From: Herbaspirillum sp. SJZ106
Lineage (GTDB): Bacteria > Pseudomonadota > Gammaproteobacteria > Burkholderiales > Burkholderiaceae_D
Reading direction: 5' to 3'
Length of the DNA stretch: 64,000 nt
Assembly (NCBI RefSeq): GCF_006715495.1
Contig: NZ_VFNI01000004.1
Location: forward strand, 377,013 to 441,012
Positions 11,012-33,231 of the stretch are shown here, one piece after another. A model generated the notes under the pieces. It saw nothing but the letters and a program-made list of their open reading frames with translations, did not search any database and had not been told where the DNA came from. The position numbers and the translations under genes are program-made. Within the stretch, counting starts at the first letter, position 1; every line of letters begins with the position of its first letter.

Positions 11012-11027
11012 TGGCAAACATATTGCT
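11012..11027 (+). promoter_or_regulatory. Sigma-54 promoter of the TonB receptor gene
   Basis: TGGCAAACATATTGCT has GG and GC separated by exactly ten bases, with TGGCA and TTGCT boxes. It ends 38 bases before the start codon. The 353-base gap 10713-11065 otherwise holds the terminator and the inverted repeat described above. Confidence 0.75.
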
Positions 11028-11065
11028 TAGAGCAGGATGAAAGTAAAAGAACATGAGGAGACGAT

Positions 11066-13612
11066 ATGTACCGATCCACCATCCTGCGGGGGCGGCAGCG
11101 ATGGCCATTGGCGGCAGCCTTGCGACTGGCGCTGGCGCTTGGCGCCGCCGCATCGGTGGCGGGCCAGGCGCAGGCCCTGGCGGCATCGGCTGAGTTGCCG
11201 ACGGTCGAAGTTGTCGGCACCACGCCGTTGCCCGGCATCGGCCAATCGCGCAATGAAATGGCGGCGCCGGTGCAAACCGCCACCAGCAAGGATATCCAGC
11301 GTAGTGGCGCACTCGATCTGGGCGACTTCATGAACCGCCGCCTGGGCAGCGTTTACGTCAATGAAATGCAGGGTAATCCATTCCAGATGGATGTCAGCTA
11401 TCGCGGCTACACCGCCTCGCCCTTGCTCGGTACGCAACAAGGCTTGTCGGTATATGTGGACGGCGTGCGCATGAACCAGCCGTTCGGCGATACGGTCAGC
11501 TGGGATCTGATTCCGCGAGCAGCGATTTCTTCCATGAGCCTGATGCCCGGCTCCAATCCGCTGTTCGGCCTCAATACGCTGGGCGGCGCGGTATCGGTAC
11601 AAACCAAGGATGGCCGCGCCAATCCTGGCACGTCGGTGCAAACCACGCTGGGCAGCAATGCGCGCCGTGCGGTGGAATTCGAGCATGGCGGCTCCAACGA
11701 TGCGCTCGATTGGTATGTCACCGGCAATTTGTTCAAGGAAGACGGCTGGCGCAATGATTCGCCGTCCGACGTGCGCCAGGTTTTCGGCAAGCTGGGCTGG
11801 CGCAATGCCGGCACCACGCTGAAACTGAGCTTCGCCCACGCCGACAATGACATGACCGGCAACGGCTTGCAGGAGCAGACCCTGATGGCGAACGACCGCG
11901 CCAGCGTCTATACCAAACCGGACCAGACCCGGAACCGCTCCACCATGTTCAATCTGGCGGCTACGCATGCGCTCAATGACAATCTGTTGTTGTCCGGCAA
12001 TGCGTATTACCGCGATATGCATACCTCAACGCTGAATGGCGACATCAACGAAGATGCGTTGAGTCAGTCCATTTATCAACTGAGTGCGGCCGAGCGTGCG
12101 GCGCTGGGCGCAGCCGGTTATGCCGGGTTTCCGACCGGCGCCATGAATGCCGCCAATACGCCGTTTCCTTACTGGCGTTGTATCGCCCAGGGTTTGCTCA
12201 ACGATGAACCCGCTGAAAAATGCACCGGCCTGATCAACCGTACCGAGACTAAGCAGCAGAACTACGGCATTTCGGCGCAAGCTGCCTGGCTCGGTGACTT
12301 GTTCGGGCAACGCAATGAACTGGTTGCCGGCGGCGCTTATGACGGCAGTCGCATCAACTTCAAGCAATCGTCGCAACTCGGTTACATCAATGCAGACCGC
12401 AGCGTCACCGGCATCAATGCATATGGCGATGGCGTCATCGGCGGCAATGTCGATGGCGAGCCGTTCGACACGCGCGTCAATCTATCGGGCCGGATCGAAA
12501 CCTGGAGCGCCTTCGCCAGCGACACCATGACTTTTGCCGACAAATGGCACCTGACCTTATCCGGCCGCTACAACACCACATCGATCAGGAACTCAGATCA
12601 GATTCATGCCGACGGCGACCCGGCTTCGCTCAGCGGCAATCATCGTTATTCGCGTTTCAATCCGGCCATCGGCCTGACCTACAGCCCGAGCTCCAGCCTC
12701 AATCTGTATGGCGGTTACAGCGAGAGCAGCCGGGCGCCGACCGCCATTGAACTGGGCTGTGCCAATCCTGATCGGCCCTGCAAGCTGCCCAACGCCATGG
12801 CCAGCGATCCGCCGCTCAAACAGGTGGTGACGCGCACGCTGGAAGCCGGCATCAGGGGCTCGGTCGGCGCCAGCCTGCAATGGAATGCCGGGGTGTTCAG
12901 CGCGCGCAATCAGGATGACATTCTGTTCGTGGCCGACAATCAATCCGGCTATGGCTACTTCAAGAACTTCGGCCAGACCAAACGCCAGGGCATCGAACTG
13001 GGCGTGAGCAGCAAGCTCGGCAATCTGGAAGTCGGCGGCCAATATACCTTCCTCGATGCCACCTACCAAAGCGCCGAGACCGTCAATGGCGCCGGCAACA
13101 GCACCAACAGCGCGGCACTGGCGGGCAGTCCGGGCCAAGAGGGCAATATCAACATCAAACCGGGCGACAAGATTCCGCTGATTCCGCGCCAGATGCTCAA
13201 GCTGTTTGCCGACTATGCGTTCTCGCCGGCATTGACCGTGAGTGCCGGCATGGTGGCAGTGGCCGGTTCACTGGCGCGCGGCAATGAAAACGGCCAGCAT
13301 CAGCCGGACGGCAAGTATTACCTCGGCCCGGGACGCAGCGCTGGCTACGCCATCTTCAATCTCGGCGCGGCCTTGCGGGTGACGCCGCAATTGCAGGTCA
13401 TGGCGCAGGTCAACAACCTGTTCGACACCCGCTATGACACCGCGGCACAGCTTGGCGCGACCGCTTTCGACGGCAACGGCAATGTCAGCGCGCGGCCGTT
13501 CGGCGGTTCCTCCGCGGCCGGGTATGCGGTGCGGCAATCCACTTTCTACGCACCGGGCGCGCCGCGCCTGTTCTGGATTGCCCTGCGTTACGAATTCGAC
13601 AAACCGAAGTAA
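11066..13612 (+). CDS. TonB-dependent outer-membrane receptor
   Basis: 848 residues with an N-terminal signal sequence (hydrophobic stretch to about residue 42). A TonB-box-like [10 protein letters not shown] is followed by a plug domain ([22 protein letters not shown] and [18 protein letters not shown]) and a long beta-barrel ending in [14 protein letters not shown], with a terminal aromatic-rich strand. The imported ligand is not evident. Its position at the head of a PQQ alcohol-oxidation block, behind a sigma-54 promoter shared with the dehydrogenase, suggests uptake of a metal complex (possibly lanthanide) or a cofactor. An iron siderophore is the default alternative. Confidence 0.9.
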
Positions 13613-13724
13613 TGCCAGGCCGACGACGGCCGACTGTTTCAATTTGCAGCAGTCGCCTGTGGACAATTGCAACAATGCACCGGGCACGCGGCGCGCCGGA
13701 CGCATGCCGGCAGTTGCGCCGCTT

Positions 13725-13740
13725 CGGCATGCTTATTGCC
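13725..13740 (+). promoter_or_regulatory. Candidate sigma-54 promoter of the beta-propeller/cytochrome b561 unit
   Basis: CGGCATGCTTATTGCC has the ten-base GG to GC spacing and a TTGC box; only the first base of the -24 box departs from TGGCA. It lies 64 bases before the beta-propeller start. Confidence 0.6.
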
Positions 13741-13803
13741 TGCGCATATTGATCCAAGCCGCAGCGATATAAAACAATAACCCCGTTCAGGAGACTTGAC
13801 ATC

Positions 13804-14781
13804 ATGACCATCACGCAAAGCATTCTTGCCGTTTCCGCCAGGCGTCTGGCATTCGCCGGCCTGCTGTCCGCGGCATTGTTGCCGGGCATGGCCGCAGCCG
13901 CTCCGTTCGCCTATGTGCCGAATGAAAGATCCGGCACCATTTCCATCATCGATTGCGCTACCGATACAGTGGCGGGGCAGATCAAGGTCGGCACCAAGCC
14001 GCGCGGGCTGGCGGTCAGCCACGATGGCAAGATGTTGTACGTCAGCGACCAGCCGGCCAATGCCTTGCTGCTTGTCGATCTCGACAAGCGGGCCCAGGTA
14101 GGTACCGTGCCGCTCGGCGAATCGCCTGAAGGTGTCGGTATTTCCGCCGCCGGCGACTGGATCGTGGCAGCCAGTGAAATCAGCAATTCGGTCAGTTTCA
14201 TTTCCAGCGCCACCAATCAAAAAGTCTTCAGCATCAAGACTGCCGGCAAGAATCCGGAACACGCGGTATTCAGCCCCGACGGAAAATGGCTGTATGTCAG
14301 CGCCGAAGAAGCCGACTCGCTCGATATCATCGATGTCGCGCAGCGCAAGCAGGTCGGTTCGGTCAAGCTCGGCATGCGGCCGCGCGGCATCGCCTTCACG
14401 CCGGACGGCCGCAAGGCCTATGTCGCCGCCGAGATTGCCAGCACCGTGTACGCCATCGATGTGGCAACGCAAAAAGTCAGCGCGAAAATCAAGCCCGGGA
14501 ATTTTTCCAATGGCGTGACGATCGCGCCCGATGGCAAGCGCGTGTATATCTCCAATGGCAAGGATGGCACGGTAACGGTGATCGACAGCGCCAGCAATAC
14601 GGTGGTGGCGACGGTGCCGGTCGGCAAGCGGCCATGGAATATGGCGATCACGCCGGATGGGAAAAAACTGTATGTCGCCAATGGCCGTTCCAATTCAGTA
14701 TCGGTGATCGACACCGCCACCAATACCGTCAGCAAGGAAGTCGCGGTTGGCGAATTGCCATGGGGCGTGGTGATCCGGTGA
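13804..14781 (+). CDS. PQQ-dependent catabolism-associated beta-propeller protein
   Basis: 325 residues with a signal peptide ([18 protein letters not shown]). It is built of about seven YVTN-type repeats of roughly 42 residues, each with a D/NG-K-x-V/L-YVSN/D core and an IDxAT/xxxV strand. This matches the family of secreted beta-propeller proteins that sit in quinoprotein alcohol dehydrogenase clusters. The molecular role is undefined; periplasmic scaffold or cofactor-handling roles are guesses. It overlaps the next gene by four bases. Confidence 0.85.
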   Translation: MTITQSILAVSARRLAFAGLLSAALLPGMAAAAPFAYVPNERSGTISIIDCATDTVAGQIKVGTKPRGLAVSHDGKMLYVSDQPANALLLVDLDKRAQVGTVPLGESPEGVGISAAGDWIVAASEISNSVSFISSATNQKVFSIKTAGKNPEHAVFSPDGKWLYVSAEEADSLDIIDVAQRKQVGSVKLGMRPRGIAFTPDGRKAYVAAEIASTVYAIDVATQKVSAKIKPGNFSNGVTIAPDGKRVYISNGKDGTVTVIDSASNTVVATVPVGKRPWNMAITPDGKKLYVANGRSNSVSVIDTATNTVSKEVAVGELPWGVVIR

Positions 14782-15329: not shown

Positions 15330-15362
15330 ATTCGCGCGCTTGCTGGCGCCGGCGGCGGCCGT

Positions 15363-16397
15363 TCAGCCCTGCCGTTGCCGCAATCCGGCGGATGACCATA
15401 CCTGGCCCTGTTTGCTGACCAGCAAGACATCCACTCGCGGCAGGCTTGCCGCCAGGCGCAAGGCTTTGGCGCTGCCCATCACGAACAGGGCGGTCGACAA
15501 GCCGTCGGCCTGCAGGCCGGTGGGCGCAGCCACGGTCACGCTGGCCAGCTGCAACGGCGAATCGCCGGTGGCCGGATCGAAAATGTGATGATGGCGAAAG
15601 TCGGGCGTAAATGTCGTTTCATAATCGCCCGAAGTGGCGATGCTGCGGCCATCCATTTCCAGCACCGCAGTCAGCGCCTGCGTATCGCGCGGATTCTGCA
15701 CGCCGATGGCCCAGTGCCGATTGGCCGGTTTGCGGCCGACGGAAATGAATTCGCCGGTATCCAGCAAAGCGTGGCGCACGCCGCGCGCCTTGAGCGCCGC
15801 CAATGCCAGATCGACGGCATAGCCTTGCGCAATGCCATTGAGCGTGATCGCCATGCCGGGCTGGCGCAAACGGATTTCATCGGCGCCGATGCTGACATCC
15901 CGCCAGTTGACCAGGGCGCGGGCGGCGCGCAGGGCGGCGGGCTCGGGCAGGGTCCGGTTCTTTGCAGCCTGGCTGAATTGCTGCCACAGCGGCTGCACCG
16001 TCATGTCGAACGCGCCGGCACTCAATGCCGACAGCCGCATCGCATCCTGCATCACATGCAGCAGGCGGGCATCGGGCGCGGCCAGGCGGCCGTCGCGGTT
16101 GAGCTGGTAAACCTGGCTGCGCGGACTGTAGATGCTCATCAGGGCATCGACGTCCTTGGCCGCCTGGAAGGCATCTTCAATCGCCAGCTCCGCTTGCCGG
16201 CGGTTGTCGTGCAGCACCTGTATCGACATGGTGGTGCCGAAGGCGAGATCGCTGCCGGTGTACAGATGAAAACCATCCGGCGTCGCCGTGCCGCGGGTCA
16301 GTTGGGCGGCCGCGGCATCCGGGCGCGACAGGCGCCAGCCGGCGGCATTGATCAGGGCGCCGCCGACGGCGGCGGAAATCAAGGTGCGACGTTGCAT
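15363..16397 (-). CDS. apbE: FAD:protein FMN transferase ApbE
   Basis: 344 residues with an RRTLIS Tat-like N-terminus. ApbE transfers FMN from FAD onto a Thr of periplasm-facing flavoproteins. Recognisable segments are GTTMSIQV, the GAFDMTVQPLW block, ITLNGIAQGYAVD, and the DTGEFISVGRK and SIATSGDYETTF stretches that bind FAD and metal. The gene follows, in the same direction, a NosR-like protein that carries a candidate flavinylation site, so that protein is its likely substrate. Confidence 0.93.
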   Translation of the reverse strand: MQRRTLISAAVGGALINAAGWRLSRPDAAAAQLTRGTATPDGFHLYTGSDLAFGTTMSIQVLHDNRRQAELAIEDAFQAAKDVDALMSIYSPRSQVYQLNRDGRLAAPDARLLHVMQDAMRLSALSAGAFDMTVQPLWQQFSQAAKNRTLPEPAALRAARALVNWRDVSIGADEIRLRQPGMAITLNGIAQGYAVDLALAALKARGVRHALLDTGEFISVGRKPANRHWAIGVQNPRDTQALTAVLEMDGRSIATSGDYETTFTPDFRHHHIFDPATGDSPLQLASVTVAAPTGLQADGLSTALFVMGSAKALRLAASLPRVDVLLVSKQGQVWSSAGLRQRQG

Positions 16398-16410: not shown

Positions 16411-18519
16411 TCAATCGATCGGGATTGCCTGAATCGGAATGAAGTCGCGCTTCACTCCCTGTTTTTTCTTTTCCAGCATCAGCGGCGCGCACTTTTCATC
16501 GCTGGCGTAGATTACGACGCAATCCATGCACTGGAAGCATTCCTGATAGGCGATCTTGCCGTCGCCGGCGATGGCTTGATAATCGCAGCGATGCCGGCAG
16601 GTCTGGCAGGGCGTGCCGCATTGCTTGCGCCGCGGCAGCCAGTTGAACACGCGCAGGCGGCCGAGCACGGCCAGGCCGGCGCCGAACGGGCACAGGTAGC
16701 GGCAAAAGAATTTGTAGACGAAGCCGCTGAGCAGCAGCAAACCGGCCGCATAAGCGACGTAAGGCCAGGAGCGCACGAAGTTGAGGGTGATGGCCGTCTT
16801 GAACGGCTCGACTTCGACCAGCACGTCGGTGATGGCGCTGGAGAACATGCTGCTGGCCACGATCCCGGCCAGCAGCGCGTACTTGATCAGTTTCAGGCGG
16901 GCATCGGTCCTGGCGCGGATTTTCAATTGCGGCAGGTGCAGCAGGCGTCCGAGCTTGCCGGTGAACTCCTGCAGGGCGCCGAACGGACACAGCCAGCCGC
17001 AAAACGTGCCGCGGCCCCAGACGACCAGGGATACCGCAACGAAGGCCCACAGCGTCACGGTCATCGGATCGTACAGGAAGAAATCGAGACTGCGGCCGGC
17101 CGCCAGCGCCTGTAGCAAGCCGGTGATATTGACGATGGATAGCTGGCCTTGGGCATACCAGCCGATGAACAGCAAGGTGAACAGCAGGAACCCCAGGCGG
17201 AACCGGATAAAGCGGCGCCCATTGCGGGTCAGTTGCCGTTGCCGGATCAGCACCAGCGACAACAGCGCCAGCGCCGCGGCCAGAATCGCCAGTTCCGGCC
17301 AGCGGCTTTTCCAGATTCCTTGCCAGGTTTTGTTGTCGCTGTCGGGCACCGTATAGAAGCGCGCCGGCAGCGTCATGCTGACGGCGAAATTCTCGGTGAA
17401 GCGTTCAGGATAAACGATGCCTTTGCTGCGGATCACCGGCAGCAGGAAATCCAGCGGGCGCGACGGATCCAGTCCCGATTGGCCGATGATGCGAAATACC
17501 TTGAGCTGCTCCGGCGCCGGCAAATCACGGGTGTCCTTGAGCTGCATTTCCATATTGAGGTCGCGCATTTCCAGCGGCAGCTTGTCTTGCTGCAACAGCA
17601 AGCGCTCGGGCACCGAGCCGGGGATGAAGTCATCGCCGGCAATGCCGTAGCGGCCATTCGACATCACCAGGATGGCATGGTCGCCGGGTTCCAGCCGCTT
17701 TTGCAATTTGTCCCAGCTGGCGGCATTGAGCAGGTTGCTGCCGATCGACGGCACCGATACATACGCCAGGTACAGATCGATGAACACGGCATCGGGATGG
17801 TTGACGGCCTCGGGATCAAGGCCGGCGCCGCCGCCGGTGGCGAATTTCTTTTCAATATCCTTGTTGTATAGCGTCAGGTGTTTGATCAGGCCGTCGTCGA
17901 GCATCGACCTGATGCTGTGTTGCTCTTGCAGATCCGGCTTGATGCGGGCGATCAGGTCGGGATCGCGGCCGGCGGAAAATCCGAGTTTCTTGTGCGCCAC
18001 CTTGAGCGCCGATGCCAATACCGTCTGATTGATGATGCGCACCGATGCCGTGGCCTTGGTAACGCCGTCGAGGTAAGCGTTGGCGCCGCCGCTCTGGCGG
18101 CCATTGCGTGCTTCGATCTTGATGTTCTGGTTCAGCGACAAGCCGCGATACTGGCTGACGAACTGGAACAAGGGCGCTTCGCCGAGACCTTCCAGAAATA
18201 CCGGTTCATGGTGCGAGAGCACCTTGACATCGAGAAAGTTGCCCTTGGGATCGATGGCGATCAACAGATTGACCGGGACGCCGGAAAATCCCGGCACCGG
18301 CGCCAGATCAACCGATTCGAATACATAGCCGACCAGTTCATTGGCGGTCGCGTTTTGGCGGAACAAAGGCCACACCGGGATATCGCCGGCTTTGTCAGCG
18401 ACGATCAGCGGCGCCGGGAAATTCTTCCGCATGGCTTCGCGCGTCATCACGCCTGCGCAGGCCTGCGGCAGGCAACAGGATGCGATCAATAACAGCAGGA
18501 TTTTTTTCCAGATATGCAT
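16411..18519 (-). CDS. NosR/NirI-like FMN-binding, polyferredoxin membrane protein
   Basis: 702 residues from the ATG at 18519, chosen because a signal peptide (MHIWKKILLLLIASCCLPQACA) follows; longer in-frame starts would add basic, unstructured residues. A periplasmic FMN-binding domain contains DGVTKATAS near residue 170, a likely ApbE flavinylation site. Several membrane segments follow, then two CxxxCP motifs (CGWLCPFGALQEF, CRYLCPFGAGLAV) and a ferredoxin-like Cys cluster near the C-terminus (CFQCMDC). NosR feeds electrons to nitrous oxide reductase, but no nos genes are here. This copy probably serves the PQQ system. Confidence 0.85.
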   Translation of the reverse strand: MHIWKKILLLLIASCCLPQACAGVMTREAMRKNFPAPLIVADKAGDIPVWPLFRQNATANELVGYVFESVDLAPVPGFSGVPVNLLIAIDPKGNFLDVKVLSHHEPVFLEGLGEAPLFQFVSQYRGLSLNQNIKIEARNGRQSGGANAYLDGVTKATASVRIINQTVLASALKVAHKKLGFSAGRDPDLIARIKPDLQEQHSIRSMLDDGLIKHLTLYNKDIEKKFATGGGAGLDPEAVNHPDAVFIDLYLAYVSVPSIGSNLLNAASWDKLQKRLEPGDHAILVMSNGRYGIAGDDFIPGSVPERLLLQQDKLPLEMRDLNMEMQLKDTRDLPAPEQLKVFRIIGQSGLDPSRPLDFLLPVIRSKGIVYPERFTENFAVSMTLPARFYTVPDSDNKTWQGIWKSRWPELAILAAALALLSLVLIRQRQLTRNGRRFIRFRLGFLLFTLLFIGWYAQGQLSIVNITGLLQALAAGRSLDFFLYDPMTVTLWAFVAVSLVVWGRGTFCGWLCPFGALQEFTGKLGRLLHLPQLKIRARTDARLKLIKYALLAGIVASSMFSSAITDVLVEVEPFKTAITLNFVRSWPYVAYAAGLLLLSGFVYKFFCRYLCPFGAGLAVLGRLRVFNWLPRRKQCGTPCQTCRHRCDYQAIAGDGKIAYQECFQCMDCVVIYASDEKCAPLMLEKKKQGVKRDFIPIQAIPID

Positions 18520-18584: not shown

Positions 18585-18600
18585 AGCAAATCGTATGCCA
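18585..18600 (-). promoter_or_regulatory. Sigma-54 promoter of the NosR-like/apbE operon
   Basis: Read on the minus strand the sequence is TGGCATACGATTTGCT, with perfect TGGCA and TTGCT boxes and ten bases between GG and GC. It lies 66 bases upstream of the NosR-like start. Confidence 0.75.
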
Positions 18601-18855
18601 TCGCTGCGGCCTGATCGATGCTGCCGGCATGCCAAAGCGATTGCGGCGGACGATCAAAATCTGAACAAGCCAGCGCACAAGTGATCCGTATTTGCGCAGC
18701 CGGGCATGCCGGTTTGAGCGCTGTTGTACTGCCGCAAGTGGTGGCGCGGGCCGCTGCCGGCGCGGCTTTCGGCATTGCGCTCACTCTGGCGGCAAGACGC
18801 CGGATCCGCCTGCTGATGGCGATATTGAAGCGGCGGCGCAAAGATGGCGCCGACA

Positions 18856-18871
18856 GGCATGCATTTTGCCC
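18856..18871 (+). promoter_or_regulatory. Candidate sigma-54 promoter of the porin gene
   Basis: AGGCATGCATTTTGCC has correct ten-base spacing and a TTGC box; the -24 box starts with A rather than T. It is 78 bases before the porin start. The rest of the 18520-18948 gap shows only the divergent sigma-54 site at 18585-18600. Confidence 0.55.
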
Positions 18872-20205: not shown

Positions 20206-20243
20206 TTGAACAGTTTGGGACAGCGGGCAGCCGATGTGTTCAA
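20206..20243. promoter_or_regulatory. Inverted repeat TTGAACA-N24-TGTTCAA upstream of the aldehyde dehydrogenase
   Basis: TTGAACA (20206-20212) and TGTTCAA (20237-20243) are exact inverted copies about 100 bases before the sigma-54 promoter. They resemble the TGTTCCA/TGGAACA half-sites found elsewhere in the block but in the opposite relative orientation. A possible activator site, weaker than the other two. Confidence 0.35.
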
Positions 20244-20340
20244 AAATATGACACTCGCGGCACAACTGTGACGCTTCCTGAACATCATGCCGGGGGCCGG
20301 CAACCGGCCGCAGCGCCGGGCCGGTGAGCGAATGAGGTTC

Positions 20341-20356
20341 TGGCATGGCGATTGCT
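20341..20356 (+). promoter_or_regulatory. Sigma-54 promoter of the aldehyde dehydrogenase gene
   Basis: TGGCATGGCGATTGCT has perfect boxes and spacing (GG-N10-GC). It ends 68 bases before the start codon. The 330-base gap before the gene also contains the porin terminator and an inverted repeat. Confidence 0.8.
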
Positions 20357-22425: not shown

Positions 22426-22461
22426 TGTTCCAGAGCGTGACAATTGCCCGCTTTTGGAACA
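22426..22461. promoter_or_regulatory. Putative upstream activator site, TGTTCCA-N22-TGGAACA
   Basis: TGTTCCA (22426-22432) and TGGAACA (22455-22461) repeat the pair seen before the TonB receptor gene, with one base more between them. The site ends 52 bases before the sigma-54 promoter of the alcohol dehydrogenase. Confidence 0.62.
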
Positions 22462-22513: not shown

Positions 22514-22529
22514 TGGCACGGGGATTGCC
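22514..22529 (+). promoter_or_regulatory. Sigma-54 promoter of the PQQ alcohol dehydrogenase gene
   Basis: TGGCACGGGGATTGCC is a full match to the sigma-54 consensus TGGCACG-N4-TTGC with ten bases between GG and GC. It ends 78 bases before the start codon. Confidence 0.85.
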
Positions 22530-22607: not shown

Positions 22608-24359
22608 ATGCAAAGAAAACTGATAGCAGGCTTGTTGGGCGTGGCGCTGAGCGGCGCGGGGCCAGTCGTGGCGTATGCGGCAGGCGTCACCGACGCCATG
22701 ATCGCCAAGGACGCCACCAATCCCGGCAGCGTCTTGTCGTGGGGCATGGGGACGCAGGGCCAGCGCTTTTCGCCGCTGACCCAGATCAATACCAAGACGG
22801 TCGGCAAGCTGGTGCCGGCGTGGTCGTTTTCCTTCGGCGGCGAGAAACAGCGCGGCCAGGAATCGCAGCCGCTGATATACAACGGCAAGATGTTCGTGAC
22901 CGGTTCGTACTCGCGCATCTATGCGATCGACATCAAAACCGGCGCCAAGCTGTGGAAGTATGAACACCGCCTGCCGGACGGCATCATGCCATGCTGTGAC
23001 GTGGTCAACCGCGGCGCGGCGCTGTACGACAATCTGGTGATTTTCGGCACGCTGGATGCGCAACTGGTCGCGCTGGACCAGGATACCGGCAAGATCGTCT
23101 GGAAAGAAAAAGTGGATGACTACGCCGCCGGCTATTCGATGTCGGCCGCGCCGCTCATCGCCAAGGGCCTGTTGCTGACCGGCGTTTCCGGCGGCGAGTT
23201 CGGCGTGGTCGGACGGGTCGACGCGCGTGATCCGAAGACCGGGCAACTGGTCTGGAGCCGGCCGATGATCGAAGGCCACATGGGCTACAAGTACGACAAG
23301 GACGGCAAGGCCACCGAAAACGGCATTACCGGCACGACCAACAAGAGCTGGCCCGGCGAATTGTGGAAAACCGGCGGCGGCGCTACCTGGCTCGGCGGCA
23401 CCTATGATCCGACTACCGGCCTGGCTTATTTCGGCACCGGCAATCCGGCGCCATGGAACAGCCACCTGCGGCCCGGCGACAATCTGTATTCGTCCTCCAC
23501 CGTGGCGCTCGATATCGAAACCGGCCAGATCAAGTGGAGCTACCAGACGACCCCGCACGACGGCTGGGATTACGATGGCGTCAACGAGTTCATCACGTTC
23601 GACATGGACGGCAAGCGTATGGGTGGCAAGGCCGACCGCAATGGCTTTTTCTACGTGATCGACGCCAAGGATGGCAAGCTGCAAAACGCCTTCCCGTTCG
23701 TCAACAAGATCACCTGGGCTTCCGGCATCGATCTGAAGACCGGGCGTCCGAATTACATCGACAAGGGCCGTCCGGGCGACCCGACCAAGGGTGAAGAAGG
23801 CAAGAAGGGCGCCACCGTATTTGCCGCTCCGGCGTTCCTCGGCGCCAAGAACCAGATGCCGATGGCCTACAGCCCGCAAACCAAACTGTTCTATGTGCCG
23901 GCCAATGAATGGGGCATGGATATCTGGAACGAACCGGTCACTTACAAGAAGGGCGGGGCTTTCCTCGGCGCCGGTTTCACCATTCATCCGATCAATGAAG
24001 ATTACATCGGCGCCATGCGCGCGGTGGATCCGAAGACCGGCAAGATCGTCTGGGAAATCAAGAACAATGCGCCGCTCTGGGGCGGTGTGATGACGACTGC
24101 CGGCGGCCTGGTGTTCTACGGCACGCCGGAAGGATTCCTCAAGGCGGTAGATGCCAAGAGCGGCAAGGAATTGTGGAAATTCCAGACCGGTTCCGGCGTG
24201 GTCGCGCCTCCGGTGACCTGGAAAGACGGCGATACGCAATACGTCGCCGTGGTGTCCGGCTGGGGCGGCGCAGTGCCGCTGTGGGGCGGCGAAGTGGCGA
24301 AGAAGGTCAACTTCCTCGAACAGGGCGGTTCGGTCTGGGTTTTCAAGCTGGCAAAATAA
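22608..24359 (+). CDS. PQQ-dependent alcohol dehydrogenase, lanthanide-type metal site
   Basis: 583 residues from an ATG with AGGAGG seven bases upstream. A signal peptide (ending near AYA, residue 26) sends it to the periplasm, where it oxidises a primary alcohol with pyrroloquinoline quinone. The adjacent Cys129-Cys130 pair ([10 protein letters not shown]) is the vicinal disulphide of these enzymes. Catalytic Asp321 is in [10 protein letters not shown]; Asp323 two residues on is the extra ligand found in XoxF, PedH and ExaF, where calcium enzymes have Ala, Ser or Thr. Propeller motifs such as [18 protein letters not shown] follow. Sequence style fits the ethanol-oxidising group, but substrate is inferred. 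Confidence 0.92.
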
Positions 24360-24600: not shown

Positions 24601-26583
<1,983 letters not shown>

Positions 26584-26707: not shown

Positions 26708-27853
26708 TTACGAGGTCGATCGGAAAAAACGCCGCGAGTTGGCATCGGTCCTGAACAAGATCGGCTGCGATTCCGCGGTCGGTTTGCTGCGCGCGTGCAT
26801 CACAATATTGGTGACGTCGCCGTGCCGCTCCGATTTGGCGCAAACCGGGTCGGCCGCGGCGGCATCGCCGGTCAAGGCAAAGGCTTGGCAGCGGCAGCCG
26901 CCAAAATCCTTTTTCTTTTCATCGCAACTGCGGCAGGGTTCCTGCATCCAGTCGTCGCCGCGGAACCGGTTGAAGGCCTGGCTGCGCTGCCAGATCTCTT
27001 CGATGCTGTAGTCGGTGACATTGGGATAGCTGATGCCGGGCAGGCTGCGCGCAGCGTGGCAGGGCAGCGCGGTGCCGTCGGCGCCGATCGCCATGAATAC
27101 CGAACCCCAGCCATTCATGCAGGCCTTGGGGCGTTCTTCAAAATAGTCCGGCACCACGAACAGGATCTTCATCTTGTTGCCGATGCGGCTGCGGTATTCG
27201 TTCACCACCGCTTCGGCACGCTCGACCTGTTCGCGCAGCGGCATCAGATGCGCGCGATTGAGCATGCCCCAGCCATAGTATTGGGTATTGGCCAGTTCCA
27301 GATATTCGACCTCCATCGCCAGCGCCATGTCGATGATGCGCGCCACATGGTCGAGGTTGTATCGATGCAGCACGACATTGAGCACCATCGGATAATCGTA
27401 GCGCTTGATCAGTCCGGCAACGCGCGACTTGAGGTCGAAGGTTTTGGTGCTCGACAAGAAATCGTTCATTTCCTTGGTCGAATCCTGAAACGAAAGCTGG
27501 ATATGATCCAGGCCGAGCCGCTTCATGCGGGCAATGCGATCTTCGTTGAGGCCGATGCCGGAAGTGACCAGGTTGGTGTAATAGCCCAGCCCGTGAGCGG
27601 CGCCGATCAATTCTTCAAGGTCGTCGCGCAACAAGGGCTCGCCGCCGGAAAAACCGAGTTGCGCCGCGCCCAGCTTGCGCGCCTGCCGCATCACATCGAT
27701 CCACTGCGCGGTGTCGAGCTCGTTGCGGTTCTCGGCATAGTTGAGCGGGTTATAGCAAAACACGCAATGCAGCGGACAGCGATAGGTCAGCTCGGCCAGC
27801 AGCCACAGCGGCGGCGGGACGGCGGCGGTTTCAGGAAATCCAGTTGCGCTCAT
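26708..27853 (-). CDS. pqqE: PQQ biosynthesis radical SAM enzyme PqqE
   Basis: 381 residues from the ATG at 27853, which lies inside pqqD (23-base overlap); the longer frame is rejected. PqqE forms the Glu-Tyr carbon-carbon cross-link in PqqA. The radical SAM cluster motif CPLHCVFCYNP is at about residues 22-32, with GFSGGEPLLRDD after it. The C-terminal SPASM region has the Cys residues of auxiliary Fe-S clusters (ALPCHAARSLPG, CRSCDEKKKDFGGCRCQAF, DPVC). The tail beyond that is about 40 residues of low-conservation sequence. Confidence 0.96.
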   Translation of the reverse strand: MSATGFPETAAVPPPLWLLAELTYRCPLHCVFCYNPLNYAENRNELDTAQWIDVMRQARKLGAAQLGFSGGEPLLRDDLEELIGAAHGLGYYTNLVTSGIGLNEDRIARMKRLGLDHIQLSFQDSTKEMNDFLSSTKTFDLKSRVAGLIKRYDYPMVLNVVLHRYNLDHVARIIDMALAMEVEYLELANTQYYGWGMLNRAHLMPLREQVERAEAVVNEYRSRIGNKMKILFVVPDYFEERPKACMNGWGSVFMAIGADGTALPCHAARSLPGISYPNVTDYSIEEIWQRSQAFNRFRGDDWMQEPCRSCDEKKKDFGGCRCQAFALTGDAAAADPVCAKSERHGDVTNIVMHARSKPTAESQPILFRTDANSRRFFRSTS

Positions 27854-28094
27854 TGGCGATCCGTAAGAAATCATCGACATCGGGACGCAGGCCGCTGACC
27901 GAGAACGCCCGTTCCAGATCCAAGGTGATGCCGGCGACATCATGTGCGCCGTCGCACAGCTTCAGAATTTCGGCCGCGCTGCGGTTGAGCTTGATCATGC
28001 CTTCCGGATACAGCAGCACGTAATTGCCTTGCGCTTCTTCCCATTGCAAGCGAAACAGGCGCGAGAGTCGGGGTTTTTCTGGCAGTGTCGTCAT
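27831..28094 (-). CDS. pqqD: PQQ biosynthesis peptide chaperone PqqD
   Basis: 87 residues, normal for PqqD. It binds the PqqA peptide and presents it to PqqE. The conserved core is visible: QWEEAQGNYVLLYPEGMIKLNRSAAEIL followed by LCDGAHDVAGI. It begins 39 bases after pqqC and overlaps pqqE by 23 bases. Coupled translation of D and E fits the complex they form. Confidence 0.94.
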   Translation of the reverse strand: MTTLPEKPRLSRLFRLQWEEAQGNYVLLYPEGMIKLNRSAAEILKLCDGAHDVAGITLDLERAFSVSGLRPDVDDFLRIANERNWIS

Positions 28095-28133
28095 GATCTC
28101 AATGGCAGGAAAGTGGATGAATGATCGGTCCGG

Positions 28134-28850
28134 CTACGGATACGCTTTGTCGATGGCGTCCAGCATGCTCCACAGCACATCGAGTTTGAATTGGAGGATT
28201 TCCAGTGCGCGCTCCTGCTGGGCCCGGGTAACGAAATGGTCGAGCGTGACTTGCAAGCCGTGTTCGACATCGCGCTCGGCCAGCGAGATGCGGCTGCGGA
28301 AATACTGCAAGCCATCGGACTCGATCCAGCTGTAGTGTTGCGGCCAGTTGGCCAGCCGGTCTTTGTGGATTTTCGGCGCAAACATTTCGGTCAGCGAAGA
28401 GCAGACCGCTTCTTGCCACGGCGCACGGCGAGCAAAGTTGACATAGGCATCGACCGCAAAACGTACGCCGGGCGCCACATGCCGCAGCGACCATAATTCC
28501 TCGCGCGGGATGCCGGCGGCGCCGGCCAGCCGGCTCCAGGCTTCGATGCCGCCGGCATTGCCCTCCCATCCATCATGGTCGAGTATGCGCTGGACCCATT
28601 TCCTGCGGGTTTCGCGGTCGGGGCAATTGGCGATGATGGCGCCGTCCTTTTGCGGAATGTTGATCTGGTAATAAAAGCGGTTGGCAATCCAGCCGCGCAC
28701 CTGGTCGGGGCTGAGCAAGCCATCGTTCATCTTGACGTTGAACGGATGGTGAATGTGGTAACCGGCGCCCTTGGCGCGCAGGCGTGATTCGAATTCGGCA
28801 CGGTCCCATGCCGGCAGTGCGGTTGATGCTGCGCAGGCGGGCTGGTTCAT
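28134..28850 (-). CDS. pqqC: Pyrroloquinoline-quinone synthase PqqC
   Basis: 238 residues. PqqC is the cofactorless oxidase that performs the final ring closure and oxidation to PQQ. Recognisable stretches are [32 protein letters not shown], and the [22 protein letters not shown] block with active-site His and Tyr. The start overlaps the pqqB stop by four bases (ATGA). It is all-helical, TenA-like in fold. Confidence 0.96.
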
Positions 28851-29764
28851 AGTTCGATTTCCATTCCATCCCAGGCGACCTCGATACCGTGCCGCGTCAA
28901 CGTGGCGCGTTCGGCGGAGTCTTCGTCAAGTATCGGGTTGGTGTTGTTGATGTGGATCAGGATCTTGCGGGTATCGTTGATCGTATCCAGCACGTCGATC
29001 ATGCCGCCCGGGCCGGATTGCGGCAGGTGCCCCATGTCGGCGGCCTTTTTCCTGGAGAAGCCGAGGTTGATCATTTCATCTTCGCTCCAGAAGGTGCCGT
29101 CGACGAGAAGGCAATCGGCGGCATGCATGGCCGCCAGCACATGCGCTTCGAGTTCGCCCAGGCCGGGCGCGTAAAACAGTTTTTTGCCGGTCTTGCGGTT
29201 TTCGATGATGAGGCCCAGGTTGTCGCCCGGTTGCGGCAATTCCCGATGCGGTGAATACGGCGGGGCCTTGCTGGTCAGCGGCAACGGCGTGAAACGGAGG
29301 TCTTCGATTTGCGGCAATTCCTGCGATGACGGCGTCTGGTTCGGCGCCAGCACATGCCATTGCACGCGGCAGTAATGCGACAGCACGTGCACCAGCGGCA
29401 AACCGCCGGTCAGGTCGTCCCAGACCGCGGCCGAACAATACAGCGGCAAGGGCTTGCCTTCGCGCAGCATGAGCAAGCCGGTAACGTGGTCGATCTGGGC
29501 ATCCATGAGCATCACGGCGGCGATGCCGGTGTCGCGGGCGGCGCGCGCCGGTTGCAGCGCCGGCGTCGCCTTGATCTGGGTCAGGATATCGGGTGATGCA
29601 TTGATCAGCAGCCAGTCGCGGCCATTGGACGATACCGCGATCGATGATTGCGTGCGGGGCCTGGCGTTGATGACGCCTTCGCGTACCCCTTTGCAGTTGC
29701 GGCAATTGCAGTTCCATTGTGGGAAGCCGCCGCCCGCCGCAGAACCTAATACGATGATTTTCAT
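28847..29764 (-). CDS. pqqB: PQQ biosynthesis protein PqqB
   Basis: 305 residues of the metallo-beta-lactamase fold. It starts [21 protein letters not shown]; the Cys pair near the N-terminus (NCNCRNC) is typical. Further motifs are [15 protein letters not shown] and GTFWSEDEM and the C-terminal HINNTNPIL. PqqB has been shown to be an iron-dependent hydroxylase of a Tyr-derived precursor in other bacteria. It follows pqqA after an 80-base gap containing a stem-loop. Confidence 0.95.
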
Positions 29765-29796
29765 TATGTGCCGGGGTCAGATCCAGAGAGGGGCAG

Positions 29797-29825: not shown

Positions 29826-29845
29826 ATTCCCGGATATCAGCGGAA

Positions 29846-29920
29846 TTAACGATTGGCGATATACATCGTGATTTCAAAGCCAAAACGCAGATCGGAAAAC
29901 TCAGGTTTGCTCCATGTCAT
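29846..29920 (-). CDS. pqqA: PQQ precursor peptide PqqA
   Basis: A 24-residue peptide starting [12 protein letters not shown] and ending EITMYIANR. The ExxxY motif that supplies the PQQ backbone is present as Glu16 and Tyr20, one residue later than in the 23-residue Klebsiella peptide. GGAGAC lies four bases upstream of the ATG. It is the first gene of a pqqABCDE operon read leftwards. It is ribosomally made, bound by PqqD, cross-linked by PqqE and then proteolysed. Confidence 0.93.
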
Positions 29921-30012
29921 GTTTGTCTCCATCAATGGGTTGAAAAAAAACGGGTACGATTTGTGATTGCATGTCAGCATCGTGTTCATGTTCCCTTGCC
30001 GCTGGCGCAATC

Positions 30013-31011
30013 ATGTCGATAAACGCAAGTTCCGTGCCGAAGTCCAATCCCGTTCCGCTGCGTTCCGGCCATCTGCCGGACAGTGCCGGCCACCGTGTCT
30101 ATTTCGCCGAGTTCGGATGCGCCGACGGCCCAGCCAGCGTGGTGTTGCATGGCGGCCCCGGCGGCAGAAGCCAGTTGTCGATGCTGGAGTGGTTCGACCT
30201 GACGCGGCAGCGCGTGGTGTTGTTCGATCAGCGCGGCGCCGGCCTCAGCTTGCCGGCCGGCGAGCTGGCGCACAACACGACTGCCGATCTGGTCGCCGAT
30301 ATCGAACGGCTGCGGGCCTATCTCGGGATCGGATGCTGGCATGTCATCGGCGGCTCATGGGGCGCGGTGCCGGCGATCCTGTATGCCGGCAGTTATCCGC
30401 AGCGCTTGCGCGGGCTGGTGTTGCGCGGCAGCTTTTTGACCAGCCCGCGCGAGATGCAATGGTTCTTCCAGGATCTGCAGGCGCTGGCGCCGCAGGCGTG
30501 GGCGCGCCTGACGCAGGGCTGGAACCGGGCGCAGAAACAGCAGGTGCTTCATTCCTTAACAGTGTTGTTGCAAAATGGGACGGTTGCCCGGCAACGTGAC
30601 GGGGCGGCCAGGTGGGGGAGTTACGAAGACGCGCTGATGCTGGCGATGAACGGGGCGGCGCCGAGGGCGTTGGCCGCGGCCGATGGCGACATGACGCCGG
30701 CCCGCCTCAACAAATACCGCATCCAGGCGCATTATTTGTCGCAGCACTGTTTCACCAGCGAGCGGAAGTTGTTGCGTGCGGCGCGCCAGGCCGATGCGGC
30801 CGGCATTCCCGCCATCATCATTCATGGCACCCGCGACTGGATCTGTCCGCCGCAAAACGCCGTCCGGCTGCAACGCTTCATGCCGGCGGCAGACCTGCGC
30901 TGGATTGCCGGCGGCGCCCATACCGCCGACGATGCGCTGATCGCCGCTGCATTGCGACAAGCGGTGGCGGATCTGCATCAGGCGCAGTCACCGCCGCCGC
31001 TGTCCGGATGA
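30013..31011 (+). CDS. Prolyl aminopeptidase-like alpha/beta hydrolase
   Basis: 332 residues from the ATG at 30013 (an earlier in-frame start at 29971 is possible). The peptidase S33 features are present: oxyanion HGGPGG, DQRGAGLS, nucleophile Ser in GGSWGAVPA, the Asp in HGTRDWICPP and the late His in GGAHTADD. It is divergent from pqqA with 92 bases between. Peptidases are needed to release the cross-linked PqqA fragment, and no pqqF is in the window, so a role in trimming PqqA is plausible but unproven. A general proline iminopeptidase is the plain alternative. Confidence 0.85.
   Translation: MSINASSVPKSNPVPLRSGHLPDSAGHRVYFAEFGCADGPASVVLHGGPGGRSQLSMLEWFDLTRQRVVLFDQRGAGLSLPAGELAHNTTADLVADIERLRAYLGIGCWHVIGGSWGAVPAILYAGSYPQRLRGLVLRGSFLTSPREMQWFFQDLQALAPQAWARLTQGWNRAQKQQVLHSLTVLLQNGTVARQRDGAARWGSYEDALMLAMNGAAPRALAAADGDMTPARLNKYRIQAHYLSQHCFTSERKLLRAARQADAAGIPAIIIHGTRDWICPPQNAVRLQRFMPAADLRWIAGGAHTADDALIAAALRQAVADLHQAQSPPPLSG
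30024..30039 (-). promoter_or_regulatory. Candidate sigma-54 promoter of the pqqABCDE operon
   Basis: Read on the minus strand: CGGCACGGAACTTGCG, with ten bases between GG and GC and a GGCACG/CTTGC pair. It lies about 100 bases upstream of pqqA and inside the first codons of the divergent hydrolase. The first base of the -24 box is C. Confidence 0.5.
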
Positions 31012-31056
31012 GCCGATGCGCTGCGGCGCAACATGCGTTGCCGATGCGCTCCAGGC

Positions 31057-33060
31057 TTACTTGGCGAGCGGGATCTTGCGGTAGATGGTATTGCGTGAAA
31101 CGCCCAGGGCGCGGGCGGTAGCGGAGACGTTGCCGCCATTGGATTTGAGCGCCTTCTGAATCACCGACAACTCCACCTGTTCCAGGTTGGCGCCTTGCGA
31201 CACCATCCAGTTGGTATTGTCTTCCGACGCTTGTGCCTGCGCGCTTTCGACATCGTCGAGGAAGTCATCGGGCAAGTGCTGGCGCTGGATTTCGGTTTCA
31301 TTGCCGGCCATCACGATGGCGGTGCGCAGCAGGTTGGTCAACTGGCGGAAGTTGCCGGGCCAGCTGTGCTGCTTGAACAGGCGCATGATCTCGGGCGCCA
31401 CCTTGTAGCGCTCCCCGCTGGATTCGGCAATCAGAATCTTTTCCACGACGATATCGAGGTCGGTGCGCTCGCGCAGCGGCGGCAGCTTGACCACCAGTCC
31501 ATTGAGCCGGTAATACAGGTCTTCGCGGAATTGACCCTTGGCGATGAGGTCGCGCAGGTTGCGGTTGGTGGCGCAGATCAGTTCGACGTTGACCGGAATC
31601 GACTTGGTGCTGCCCAGCGGCGTCACCATGCGTTCCTGCAGCACCCGCAGCAGGCGGGCCTGCAGGCTGAACGGCATGTCGCCGATTTCATCCAGGAACA
31701 AGGTGCCGCCATTGGCCTGCAGCAATTTGCCGACTGCGCCTTTCTTGCGGGCGCCGGTGAAGGCGCCGTCTTCATAACCGAACAGCTCGGATTCAATCAG
31801 GGTTTCCGGAATCGAGGCGCAGTTGACGGCGACAAACGGGCCTTCAGCGCGAGGAGAGTCGTTGTGGATGGCTTGCGCCAGCAATTCCTTGCCGGTGCCG
31901 GTTTCGCCCATGACCAGAATCGGGATGTCGCGTCCCAGCACTTTGTTGACCTTGTCGATCAGGGCGGCTACTTGCGGATCGCCGGTATTGAGGTAACGCA
32001 AACCGGACATGCGGCGCTGGCTCTGGCTGGCTGTCTGCGAGGACGCTGGCTGGGGCGCGTGAGCGCCGCTCTGTCGGCCCGGTTCGCCATCGTTGCCCTG
32101 ATCGTTGCGCGCCAGGTCGGCGGAGTGTTGGAATACGCTGTTGGCAATTTGCAACTGAGCCCGTCCGTATACCCGCACGCCGCTTGGCATGCACAGATTC
32201 AGCAAGCCCGGTGTTGCGGTGCGGTAGTGATCGAACAGGGCCGAAATCGGCAAACCGAACAGGGAGCTGAAGGTGTGCGACTGCAATGCCGACAGCGGCA
32301 GGCCCAACTGAAACAGGCCGGTGCGGTTGGCCGACAGGAAGCGCCCGCTCGGTGTGAATGAGGCGATGCCTTCCATCAGCGTGCCGATGAATTCGGGACG
32401 CGTATTGAAGTGCAGGGTAATGGCGTTGTGGAAGGCGGCGGAGAATATATGGTTCTCGATCATTTGCGCCGACATCCGCACCAGCGCCATGGTGTGCTTG
32501 TGAAAGCTGGACTGGTCGCCGGTCACATCCAGCACGCCGATCACATTGCCCTGATGATCGGAAATCGGCGCGGCCGAACAGGTGAGGAAATGATTGGCCT
32601 GTAAATAATGTTCATTCGCATGTATCTGCACGGGCTGTTTTTCGACAATGGCGGTGCCGATGGCATTGGTGCCCTTGCTTTGTTCCGACCAGGTGACGCC
32701 CGGCTGCAATGCCACGCGGTTGGCCTTTTCCAGGAAGTCGTCGTCGCCGAGCGTATGGACGATCAGACCGTTGACGTCGGTCAGGATCACCATATTGTGG
32801 GTGTTGATGATTTGCTCGTACAGCGTTTCCATGACAGGCAGCGCATGCAGATGCAGCGTGCGGTTTTGCTCCAGCAGCATCGAAAAATCGGCGCGCGCGA
32901 TCGGGCTGTAGTCCGGGGCCTCGGTCTCGGACAAGCCATGTGCGATGGAACGCTGGCGGGATTCTTCTACGATCATGATGTGGGGACCATATGCAGAAAG
33001 CATGCCCGTCGTATTGGCGGCAGCAATCGGTCCGCCGTTGCCGTCTGTCATTGTCTGCAC
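31057..33060 (-). CDS. acoR: Sigma-54-dependent activator, AcoR type
   Basis: 667 residues in three parts. A GAF-type sensor occupies about residues 60-230 (GVTWSEQSKGTNAIGTAI and HYLQANHFLTCSAAPI are hallmarks of AcoR-like sensors). The AAA+ domain follows, with Walker A GETGTGKE, the sigma-54-contacting GAFTGA and Walker B LFLDEIGDMP. A Fis-type helix-turn-helix closes the protein (NGGNVSATARALGVSRNTIYRK). AcoR activates acetoin or alcohol catabolism genes in related bacteria. Here it is adjacent to the PQQ genes and many sigma-54 promoters surround it, so it is the probable master activator. Its inducer is unknown. Confidence 0.93.
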   Translation of the reverse strand: MQTMTDGNGGPIAAANTTGMLSAYGPHIMIVEESRQRSIAHGLSETEAPDYSPIARADFSMLLEQNRTLHLHALPVMETLYEQIINTHNMVILTDVNGLIVHTLGDDDFLEKANRVALQPGVTWSEQSKGTNAIGTAIVEKQPVQIHANEHYLQANHFLTCSAAPISDHQGNVIGVLDVTGDQSSFHKHTMALVRMSAQMIENHIFSAAFHNAITLHFNTRPEFIGTLMEGIASFTPSGRFLSANRTGLFQLGLPLSALQSHTFSSLFGLPISALFDHYRTATPGLLNLCMPSGVRVYGRAQLQIANSVFQHSADLARNDQGNDGEPGRQSGAHAPQPASSQTASQSQRRMSGLRYLNTGDPQVAALIDKVNKVLGRDIPILVMGETGTGKELLAQAIHNDSPRAEGPFVAVNCASIPETLIESELFGYEDGAFTGARKKGAVGKLLQANGGTLFLDEIGDMPFSLQARLLRVLQERMVTPLGSTKSIPVNVELICATNRNLRDLIAKGQFREDLYYRLNGLVVKLPPLRERTDLDIVVEKILIAESSGERYKVAPEIMRLFKQHSWPGNFRQLTNLLRTAIVMAGNETEIQRQHLPDDFLDDVESAQAQASEDNTNWMVSQGANLEQVELSVIQKALKSNGGNVSATARALGVSRNTIYRKIPLAK

Positions 33061-33144
33061 TTTTGTCTCCTCTTTCTATTTATGCTGCGGCTTGTATCAG
33101 CCTGCTTTGGCTTGTTTCTTTTTTGGTGTTGTTTAATGTAGCAC

Positions 33145-33163
33145 TTGTTCATTAACAGAACAA
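33145..33163. promoter_or_regulatory. Palindrome TTGTTC-N7-GAACAA between acoR and the cytochrome gene
   Basis: TTGTTC (33145-33150) and GAACAA (33158-33163) are inverted and share the TGTTC core of the two long inverted repeats upstream. The site is 52 bases before the cytochrome sigma-54 promoter and near the expected start of acoR transcription, so it could activate one gene and restrain the other. Confidence 0.45.
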
Positions 33164-33172
33164 AAAATGTGC

Positions 33173-33188
33173 AGCAATTTCAGTGCCA
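33173..33188 (-). promoter_or_regulatory. Candidate sigma-54 promoter of acoR
   Basis: Read on the minus strand: TGGCACTGAAATTGCT, with perfect boxes and a ten-base GG to GC interval. It is 113 bases upstream of the acoR start, suggesting that the activator controls its own synthesis. Confidence 0.6.
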
Positions 33189-33215
33189 GTGTGGCGCTTT
33201 CAAACTTCTGCCGCG

Positions 33216-33231
33216 TGGCATGGTAATTGCA
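33216..33231 (+). promoter_or_regulatory. Sigma-54 promoter of the cytochrome c gene
   Basis: TGGCATGGTAATTGCA matches the consensus throughout. It ends 43 bases before the start codon of the cytochrome gene and is back-to-back with the candidate acoR promoter. Confidence 0.82.

Follow-up and report, generated by a model that had tools for sequence, protein, structure and literature searches.

A predicted sigma-54/AcoR regulon for pyrroloquinoline quinone-dependent alcohol oxidation in Herbaspirillum sp. SJZ106

Nine sites with the layout of sigma-54 promoters lie within some 22 kb of the genome of Herbaspirillum sp. SJZ106, and they raise the question of whether the genes around them form one regulon. 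The sites belong to a 64-kb window (the whole stretch analysed, C4:377013-441012 in a genome of 4.58 Mb and 14 contigs). The block that carries them encodes a TonB-dependent receptor, a beta-propeller protein, ApbE, a NosR-like protein, a porin, the aldehyde dehydrogenase (ALDH) ExaC, a DUF779 protein, a pyrroloquinoline quinone (PQQ)-dependent alcohol dehydrogenase (ADH), an acetate--CoA ligase (ACS), PqqEDCB, PqqA, a hydrolase, a sigma-54 activator and the cytochrome c PedF, i.e. a set for periplasmic ethanol oxidation. The activator we take to be AcoR, a name that comes from the first-pass annotation of this DNA. That annotation had proposed a single sigma-54 regulon. Conservation across genera, a common activator-type enhancer and genome-wide density all back this proposal, and the block very probably constitutes one RpoN/AcoR regulon through which ethanol, or another short alcohol like it, is oxidised in the periplasm with PQQ as cofactor.

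All nine GG-N10-GC sites listed in the first-pass annotation are present on the strands and at the places given, with the correct spacing in 9/9; the porin site is real but starts at 18855 rather than 18856. Six carry both boxes in full (TGGCA-N6-TTGC), as had been claimed. They precede the TonB receptor gene, which starts at 11066 (TGGCAAACATATTGCT, 11012-11027, plus strand), the NosR-like gene (TGGCATACGATTTGCT, 18585-18600, minus), the ExaC gene (TGGCATGGCGATTGCT, 20341-20356, plus), the ADH gene (TGGCACGGGGATTGCC, 22514-22529, plus), acoR (TGGCACTGAAATTGCT, 33173-33188, minus) and the cytochrome c gene (TGGCATGGTAATTGCA, 33216-33231, plus). The sites of the beta-propeller gene (CGGCATGCTTATTGCC, 13725-13740, plus), the porin gene, which starts at 18949 (AGGCATGCATTTTGCC, 18855-18870, plus), and pqqA (CGGCACGGAACTTGCG, 30024-30039, minus, overlapping the 5' end of the divergent hydrolase frame) differ solely in the first base of the -24 box. 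Mechanical calling of open reading frames had set the sites at 18585, 22514 and 30024 inside over-long frames; ribosome-binding sites and homology place the probable starts of the NosR-like and ADH genes downstream of their sites, at 18519 and 22608. No sigma-54 site of their own was found for ACS, pqqBCDE, ApbE and the hydrolase, which may depend on read-through from genes before them.

The strict core is needed to see any enrichment, because loose matches show no excess over shuffles: scanning the window for TGGCACN5TTGCW with up to three mismatches gave 335 matches versus a mean of 354 in shuffled sequences. The genome contains 84 matches to the pattern TGGCAN6TTGC, versus 15 to the reversed control pattern, and on this measure the block is the densest 22-kb stretch of the genome. 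It holds seven of the 84 matches (the six promoters and one match inside the ACS gene, at 26285), and every other 22.2-kb stretch holds at most four. When 84 sites were placed uniformly in 20,000 simulation runs, at least seven fell within any 22.2 kb once and at least six in 71 runs. Among the genome matches listed for the narrower pattern TGGCAYN5TTGCW, 36 are exact, four of them in the block. Relaxing the first base (NGGCAN6TTGC) yields 14 matches in the whole window, namely the nine named sites and five more (26285, 33318, 36352, 39991 and 40093), all within genes by their coordinates.

Many of these sigma-54 switches are retained in related bacteria. In the sister species (G014), whose aligned stretches are 89-90% identical to the window, all nine GGCA/TTGC cores are unchanged, those of acoR and cytochrome c being seen at its locus L052. 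The TonB receptor, ALDH, pqqA and acoR sites are identical there and the beta-propeller, NosR-like, ADH and cytochrome c sites keep their cores; in the seven sites compared there, differences from the window occur in some spacer bases and at some first and last positions. We further collected 80 loci by AcoR alignment; these are related, not independent, and an earlier set appears to share several contigs with them, so that the two sets of counts are not to be added. Genes were located by tblastn (at least 40% identity, at least 55% coverage, query start within 60 and at least 250 bp of upstream sequence, the rest being dropped), and a site was called when it had at most one mismatch and lay within 350 bp upstream of the gene. 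Such sites precede the ALDH gene in 55 of 56 relatives, the beta-propeller orthologues in 38 of 39 loci, all 19 cytochrome c orthologues and acoR in 48 of 77 relatives (all 48 exact), where mono-base shuffles expect 0.2-0.5 sites for each of these four genes and 0 to 0.5 per gene overall. By the same call they are absent upstream of the genes for ApbE (0/53), the periplasmic binding protein (0/18), ACS (0/9), the hydrolase (0/6) and the methyl-accepting chemotaxis protein (0/1), and of pqqB, C, D and E (0 of 6 or 7 each); they occur in one of three porin regions and two of 66 DUF779 regions.

The weaker sites are kept as weak sites in relatives, as the porin and pqqA examples show. All three porin orthologues have NGGCA..TTGC at -125 to -136. 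The weak pqqA form CGGCATGGAAMTTGCS stands before pqqB/pqqA in 7/7 pqqB-bearing loci, four of them from Collimonas, with pqqA itself visible in the four regions inspected; it also occurs in L066. Coding constraint from the divergent hydrolase frame could contribute to this conservation. In L078 and L080 the pqqA box is retained while the sequence past it differs.

A second element is shared by the block. The gap between acoR and the cytochrome c gene drew attention to a conserved palindrome of the type TGTTCCAnnnTGGAACA, TGTTC-N7-GAACA, which we take as the candidate AcoR enhancer; spacings of 5, 6, 8 and 9 bp were compared with 7, and by eye only 7 seemed concentrated in the gaps of the block. 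In relatives, counting matches with at most two mismatches within 450 bp of a gene, it lies near the ALDH gene in 56/56 cases (43 with at most one mismatch; shuffles give 7.1 and 0.9), near cytochrome c in 15/19 (shuffles 3.1), near acoR in 54/65 (11.1) and near the porin gene in 2/3 (0.6). We built a matrix from 42 distinct pattern-bearing sites in 49 loci of relatives, the window and L072 being excluded (consensus TGTTCCAAATTGGAACA). Ten window matches score at least 12, versus 1.0 expected under a first-order Markov model, and the six best all lie in gaps before block promoters. In order of rank, these start at 10910, 33146, 20237, 13635, 18651 and 10892. Two more of the best nine, at 22445 and 22426, also fall between genes of the block; the matches of rank seven (35945) and ten (48797) are inside genes, the former that of the chemoreceptor and the latter one beyond the block.

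Of the candidate AcoR enhancers, two precede the TonB receptor promoter on the plus strand, at 10892-10908 (score 13.5) and 10910-10926 (score 22.2), the latter identical in the sister species and ending 85 bp before the -24 box. That of the beta-propeller gene (13635-13651, plus strand, score 14.8) ends 73 bp before the 13725 site and is nearer the consensus in the sister species than in the window. A candidate at 18651-18667 (score 13.6) lies between the NosR-like and porin promoters, the porin sharing it with NosR as its nearest. The ALDH candidate (20237-20253, plus strand, score 15.0) ends 87 bp before the promoter and is identical in the sister species, as are both ADH candidates (22426-22442 and 22445-22461, plus strand, scores 12.7 and 12.9). 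A perfect palindrome (TGTTCATTAACAGAACA, 33146-33162), identical in Herbaspirillum autotrophicum L072, stands upstream of the cytochrome c promoter, where the sigma-54 transcript of acoR is predicted to begin. For the TonB receptor, beta-propeller, NosR, ALDH, ADH and cytochrome c promoters, 50-87 bp separate the end of the nearest upstream enhancer from the -24 box. The sites, their conservation, the enhancer motif and the identities of the genes are matters of observation.

Several results weigh against a regulon of this extent. The NosR site is found in only 2/52 relatives and the ADH site in 6/55, and their enhancers are at or little above the shuffle level (7/52 versus 6.3 and 12/55 versus 6.8); near the beta-propeller gene the enhancer occurs once in 25 cases, versus 2.5 in shuffles, and for the remaining genes it is near or under the shuffle level. 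Twenty-nine of 77 acoR regions are without a sigma-54 site; none was found before acoR in L056 and L062, before the remote beta-propeller gene of L055 or, for pqqA, in L061 (G037). No recognisable enhancer lies near the pqqA promoter of the window. The near-invariance of the boxes amid variable flanks across relatives' sites is partly built in by the selection of pattern-bearing sites, as is the training set of the enhancer matrix. The opposite-strand control is high for the beta-propeller (36/39), cytochrome c (13/19), porin (3/3) and acoR (15/77), with only 5/56 before ALDH. In the loci inspected these high counts are due to divergent neighbours with sites of their own, i.e. a PqqU-like receptor (L053, L057, L059) and the acoR/cytochrome c pair; before the porin gene, in L077, L078 and L080, the opposite-strand sites resemble the receptor-type site. 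The palindrome need not be essential either, since activation by BmoR, an alcohol-responsive activator of Thauera butanivorans, is intact after deletion of its inverted repeat (PMC8899819). Finally, another AcoR encoded in the genome, whose recognition helix is nearly the same, may share the sites of the block.

This last point leads to the rival that survives best, in which the sigma-54 promoters are real and their master activator is the second AcoR (AcoR2), or the two AcoRs are interchangeable. The block activator is of AcoR type, with a GAF domain, an AAA+ domain with the GAFTGA motif and a Fis-type helix-turn-helix (HTH), and its neighbours are the ethanol-oxidation genes, where the name would point to acetoin catabolism; none of 25 NCBIfam models among the matches listed for it reached its cut-off. 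Seven strong PF00158 activators and one rpoN are present in the genome. Of the PF00158 matches just one, at C4:408504, falls in the window, so the first-pass annotation was right to name it as the only sigma-54 activator there. AcoR2 (C4:23946-25838) is 57-60% identical to the block AcoR and belongs to a second acoR-exaC-DUF779 set (C4:21684-25838, L002) with similar pairs in L063-L065 from other members of the genus; the neighbouring ExaC gene carries both a sigma-54 site and a perfect enhancer (TGTTCCAGATTGGAACA). Cross-talk between the two AcoRs on the same sites is likely, because their recognition helices are almost identical (HTH AGNVSAAAKALGISRNTIYRRI in AcoR2, GGNVSATARALGVSRNTIYRKI in the block AcoR). 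Yet it is the block AcoR that accompanies the block genes in other genera, and 17 of 18 members of the genus with an AcoR2-level match lack it. We therefore regard control by AcoR2, or by either protein indifferently, as unlikely, if well worth keeping in mind.

One might also argue that only a core, comprising the ALDH operon, cytochrome c, the beta-propeller gene, acoR and pqqA, is a sigma-54 regulon, the NosR, porin, TonB receptor or ADH sites being local additions or chance. The scarcity of NosR and ADH sites in relatives speaks for this, as do the facts that the filter let through no TonB receptor orthologue from the 80 loci and that porin orthologues number just three. But all the cores are retained in the sister species, the NosR, ADH and TonB receptor sites each have a high-scoring enhancer upstream, the porin site is kept in all three orthologues, and where ADH is divergent from ALDH, in L055 and L080, it has an exact site of its own. 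A regulon restricted to this core thus seems improbable to us. That all the sites arose by chance in GC-rich DNA, as the unremarkable number of loose matches might suggest, is close to inconceivable given the density of strict cores, the matching enhancer and above all the conservation before the same genes, which already contradicts it.

If the block is one RpoN/AcoR regulon, it probably works as follows; the inducer, the binding of AcoR, the direction of autoregulation and the start sites are here predicted from sequence. Sigma-54 RNA polymerase would wait at the nine promoters. The GAF domain of AcoR would probably sense the alcohol or its aldehyde, and AcoR would bind TGTTCCAnnnTGGAACA-type palindromes about 50-100 bp upstream of most promoters, its AAA+ domain driving open-complex formation. 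Outer-membrane uptake, PedF, ADH and ALDH, PQQ synthesis and a flavin redox branch made of NosR and ApbE would then be switched on jointly.

The control region of acoR itself appears to be wired oddly, with a sigma-54 site upstream and the enhancer downstream of the corresponding start, over a sigma-70-like promoter. Geometry separates it from the ALDH gene. Among 55 ALDH regions that have both elements, 54 show the enhancer centre at -247 to -74 relative to the predicted start; of 42 such acoR regions, 40 show it at +9 to +130, downstream of the predicted sigma-54 start. The acoR sample comprises 71 regions, including 2 with the sigma-54 site only, 18 with the enhancer only and 9 with neither. 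The putative sigma-70 promoter of the window (TTGTTC-N17-TACATT with TGC before the -10 box, 33135-33163, minus strand) overlaps the enhancer and is conserved: an alignment of 24 chosen loci shows TGCTACATT with TTGYTC 17 bp upstream. The pattern TGNTACATT, chosen after viewing the alignment and in some loci itself part of the palindrome, precedes acoR in 57 of 81 regions, the window among them, and is absent from all 369 control regions. Of these 57, 40 have TTGYYC 17 bp upstream and 54 overlap an enhancer with at most two mismatches. A strict search (TTG-N16-18, at least 8/12 matches, TG before the -10 box) found only two of the 81 acoR regions and no control region. Given the post hoc pattern, the overlap with the palindrome in some loci and the result of this strict filter, we have only moderate confidence in the sigma-70 reading. 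If it holds, the sigma-70 promoter, overlapped by the palindrome, would keep acoR on; rising AcoR would probably cover this promoter and feed the divergent cytochrome c promoter, and transcription of acoR may then pass to the sigma-54 promoter that lies farther upstream. A similar arrangement occurs at Pr/Ps of the TOL plasmid, where the activator sites of the divergent sigma-54 promoter overlap the sigma-70 promoter of the activator gene xylR; acoR differs in having, in addition, a conserved sigma-54 site upstream.

The supply of the cofactor appears to vary among relatives. Many bacteria scavenge PQQ via PqqU (PMC12124388). We surveyed a sample of 116 genomes of the family, calling ADH at E<=1e-290 and the PqqU-like receptor at E<=1e-120. 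ADH occurs in 32 of them, 22 with pqqC and 10 without it. A PqqU-like receptor is found in 9 of these 10 and in 15 of the 22, as well as in 35 of 74 genomes with neither gene; none of the receptors in the 116 genomes is over the curated PqqU cut-off, and those of two relatives reach 607 and 639 bits with NF041535 (cut-off 1200). The receptor lies at most 20 kb from ADH in 8/9 genomes without pqqC versus 5/15 with it (Fisher P=0.013, ignoring relatedness and contig breaks), which suggests a make-or-import exchange of cofactor supply. In eight of the nine ADH genomes that lack pqqC and have the receptor, the distance is about 6 kb or less. The receptor-side sigma-54 site in L053, L057 and L059 is TGGCAGGYATATTGCT, close to TGGCAAACATATTGCT of the window. 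Since genomes lacking pqqC usually have the receptor near ADH, with a sigma-54 site in L053 and L057, we predict that they depend on environmental PQQ. The TonB receptor of the window is another protein: it scores 97 bits with NF041535 and differs from the PqqU-like receptor (25% identity over the 302 aligned columns of the best segment). Taken together, a bolder picture can be drawn, and we hold it tentatively, as a possibility somewhat short of even. In it, acoR would be a two-promoter switch with its own enhancer in the transcribed leader, AcoR silencing the housekeeping sigma-70 promoter by covering it while acting from downstream on the conserved sigma-54 promoter, so that acoR passes from sigma-70 to sigma-54 control once alcohol appears; the regulon would have an interchangeable cofactor module, which makes PQQ (pqqABCDE) or imports it (PqqU-like receptor), each under sigma-54 sites.

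For alcohol oxidation with PQQ as cofactor, the regulators described are mainly of two-component and LuxR type. The first-pass annotation had called a full sigma-54 circuit of this kind unusual. This stands inasmuch as we found no AcoR regulon spanning a PQQ module in the open-licence literature searched, where PMC8427195 and PMC3480352 touch on AcoR and PQQ in Pseudomonas, and a term search of a survey of sigma-54 regulons (PMC12316311) gave no match for PQQ, ethanol or AcoR. It does not stand for the parts: as far as the available text of PMC4676750 goes, rpoN1 of Ralstonia solanacearum is required for growth on ethanol and its acoR (Rsc3129) lies beside exaC (Rsc3128) with predicted RpoN regulation, as in the block, and Azospirillum exaA is cited as sigma-54-dependent in the part of PMC6115532 at hand. 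In the Ralstonia text exaC alone is named as a target, whereas the regulon predicted here adds the PQQ ADH, PedF, PQQ synthesis, the receptor, the porin and NosR/ApbE; the acoR2-ALDH2 pair of the present genome looks like a closer match to the Ralstonia pair than the block does. Azospirillum exaA shares with the block a PQQ alcohol dehydrogenase gene under sigma-54, but the partner regulator described in that excerpt is LuxR-type rather than AcoR-type. Judged by its description (PMC8899819), BmoR at the butane monooxygenase promoter resembles the predicted AcoR in that it is a sigma-54 activator, responds to alcohol and has an inverted repeat upstream; it controls an alkane monooxygenase, and its upstream activating sequence lies 193 bp upstream of the -24/-12 boxes. 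The Pseudomonas ped cluster combines, like the block, PQQ dehydrogenases with PedF and a periplasmic binding protein, PedG; in the available passages of PMC12997753 sigma-54 comes up solely in connection with the response regulator CbrB, and there is no mention of AcoR. What would be new, then, is a regulon covering the PQQ module. The case made here from sequence is that in an environmental family, the Oxalobacteraceae, sigma-54 and an AcoR-type activator control the alcohol-oxidation module together with its cofactor supply. From it come a specific consensus for the enhancer, a set of predicted targets and an unusual autoregulatory design.

The gene assignments on which the ethanol-oxidation set rests are as follows. 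On the plus strand lie the TonB-dependent receptor (11066-13612, 848 amino acids, PF00593/PF07715) and the 325-residue beta-propeller protein (13804-14781, six TIGR02276 repeats, TIGR03866 under its cut-off), and on the minus strand the ApbE-type flavin mononucleotide transferase (15363-16397, PF02424) and the NosR-like flavin/4Fe-4S membrane protein (16411-18519), which we call NosR-like only, since it scores 601 bits with NF046105 against a cut-off of 1000. ExaC, an acetaldehyde dehydrogenase (20425-21945, plus; NF050026 953.7 bits, cut-off 900), ADH of ExaA type (22608-24359, plus; TIGR03075 767 bits, cut-off 480) and ACS (24601-26583, plus; TIGR02188 962 bits) are all over their cut-offs. 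They are followed on the minus strand by pqqE, pqqD, pqqC and pqqB (26708-29764; TIGR02109; TIGR03859, TIGR02111 and TIGR02108 over cut-offs), pqqA, identified by eye and encoding a 24-residue precursor peptide (29846-29920), and acoR (31057-33060; PF01590, PF00158, PF02954). On the plus strand again, cytochrome c-550 PedF (33275-33745; TIGR04494 197 bits, over the cut-off of 122) precedes a periplasmic binding protein gene, PedG-like by position (33845-34684; TIGR03871 24 bits, far under cut-off), which is possibly cotranscribed with it.

The block is patchy in the genus. Its acoR, 95% identical to that of Herbaspirillum autotrophicum, the nearest named relative in the AcoR alignment scan, occurs among 34 genomes of the genus in the window genome and the sister species only; of the others, 17 have a match at the level of AcoR2 and 15 have none at E<=1e-100. 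Third-position GC is 0.75-0.81 in eight block genes versus 0.82-0.91 in three left and ten right flanking genes (comparison over window 10713-36386). This low GC and the presence of acoR in two of 34 genomes suggest that the block was perhaps gained or differentially lost.

A few further observations concern the palindromes and the loci of relatives. Within the hydrolase gene, at 30545-30582, two weak palindromes (scores 11.2 and 9.7) lie 21 bp apart; some 500 bp upstream of the pqqA promoter, they are possibly its missing enhancer. Elsewhere in the genome, perfect and near-perfect palindromes 52 bp apart at C4:281838-281906 (L003:9839-9907) were not taken as a target, there being no sigma-54 site with at most one mismatch nearby; the gene next to them has no Pfam match. 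Nor was the palindrome at C2:446378, which is inside a GntR-type gene. In a Janthinobacterium locus, a gene for 398 amino acids without a Pfam (1e-5) or NCBIfam (1e-10) match sits between the NosR-like and ADH genes (L079:5800-6996, minus strand). In Janthinobacterium sp. LM6 the cluster directly adjoins a ribosomal RNA operon (L086:4100-9278), which probably explains why many draft contigs among L079-L151 end a few hundred bases before acoR.

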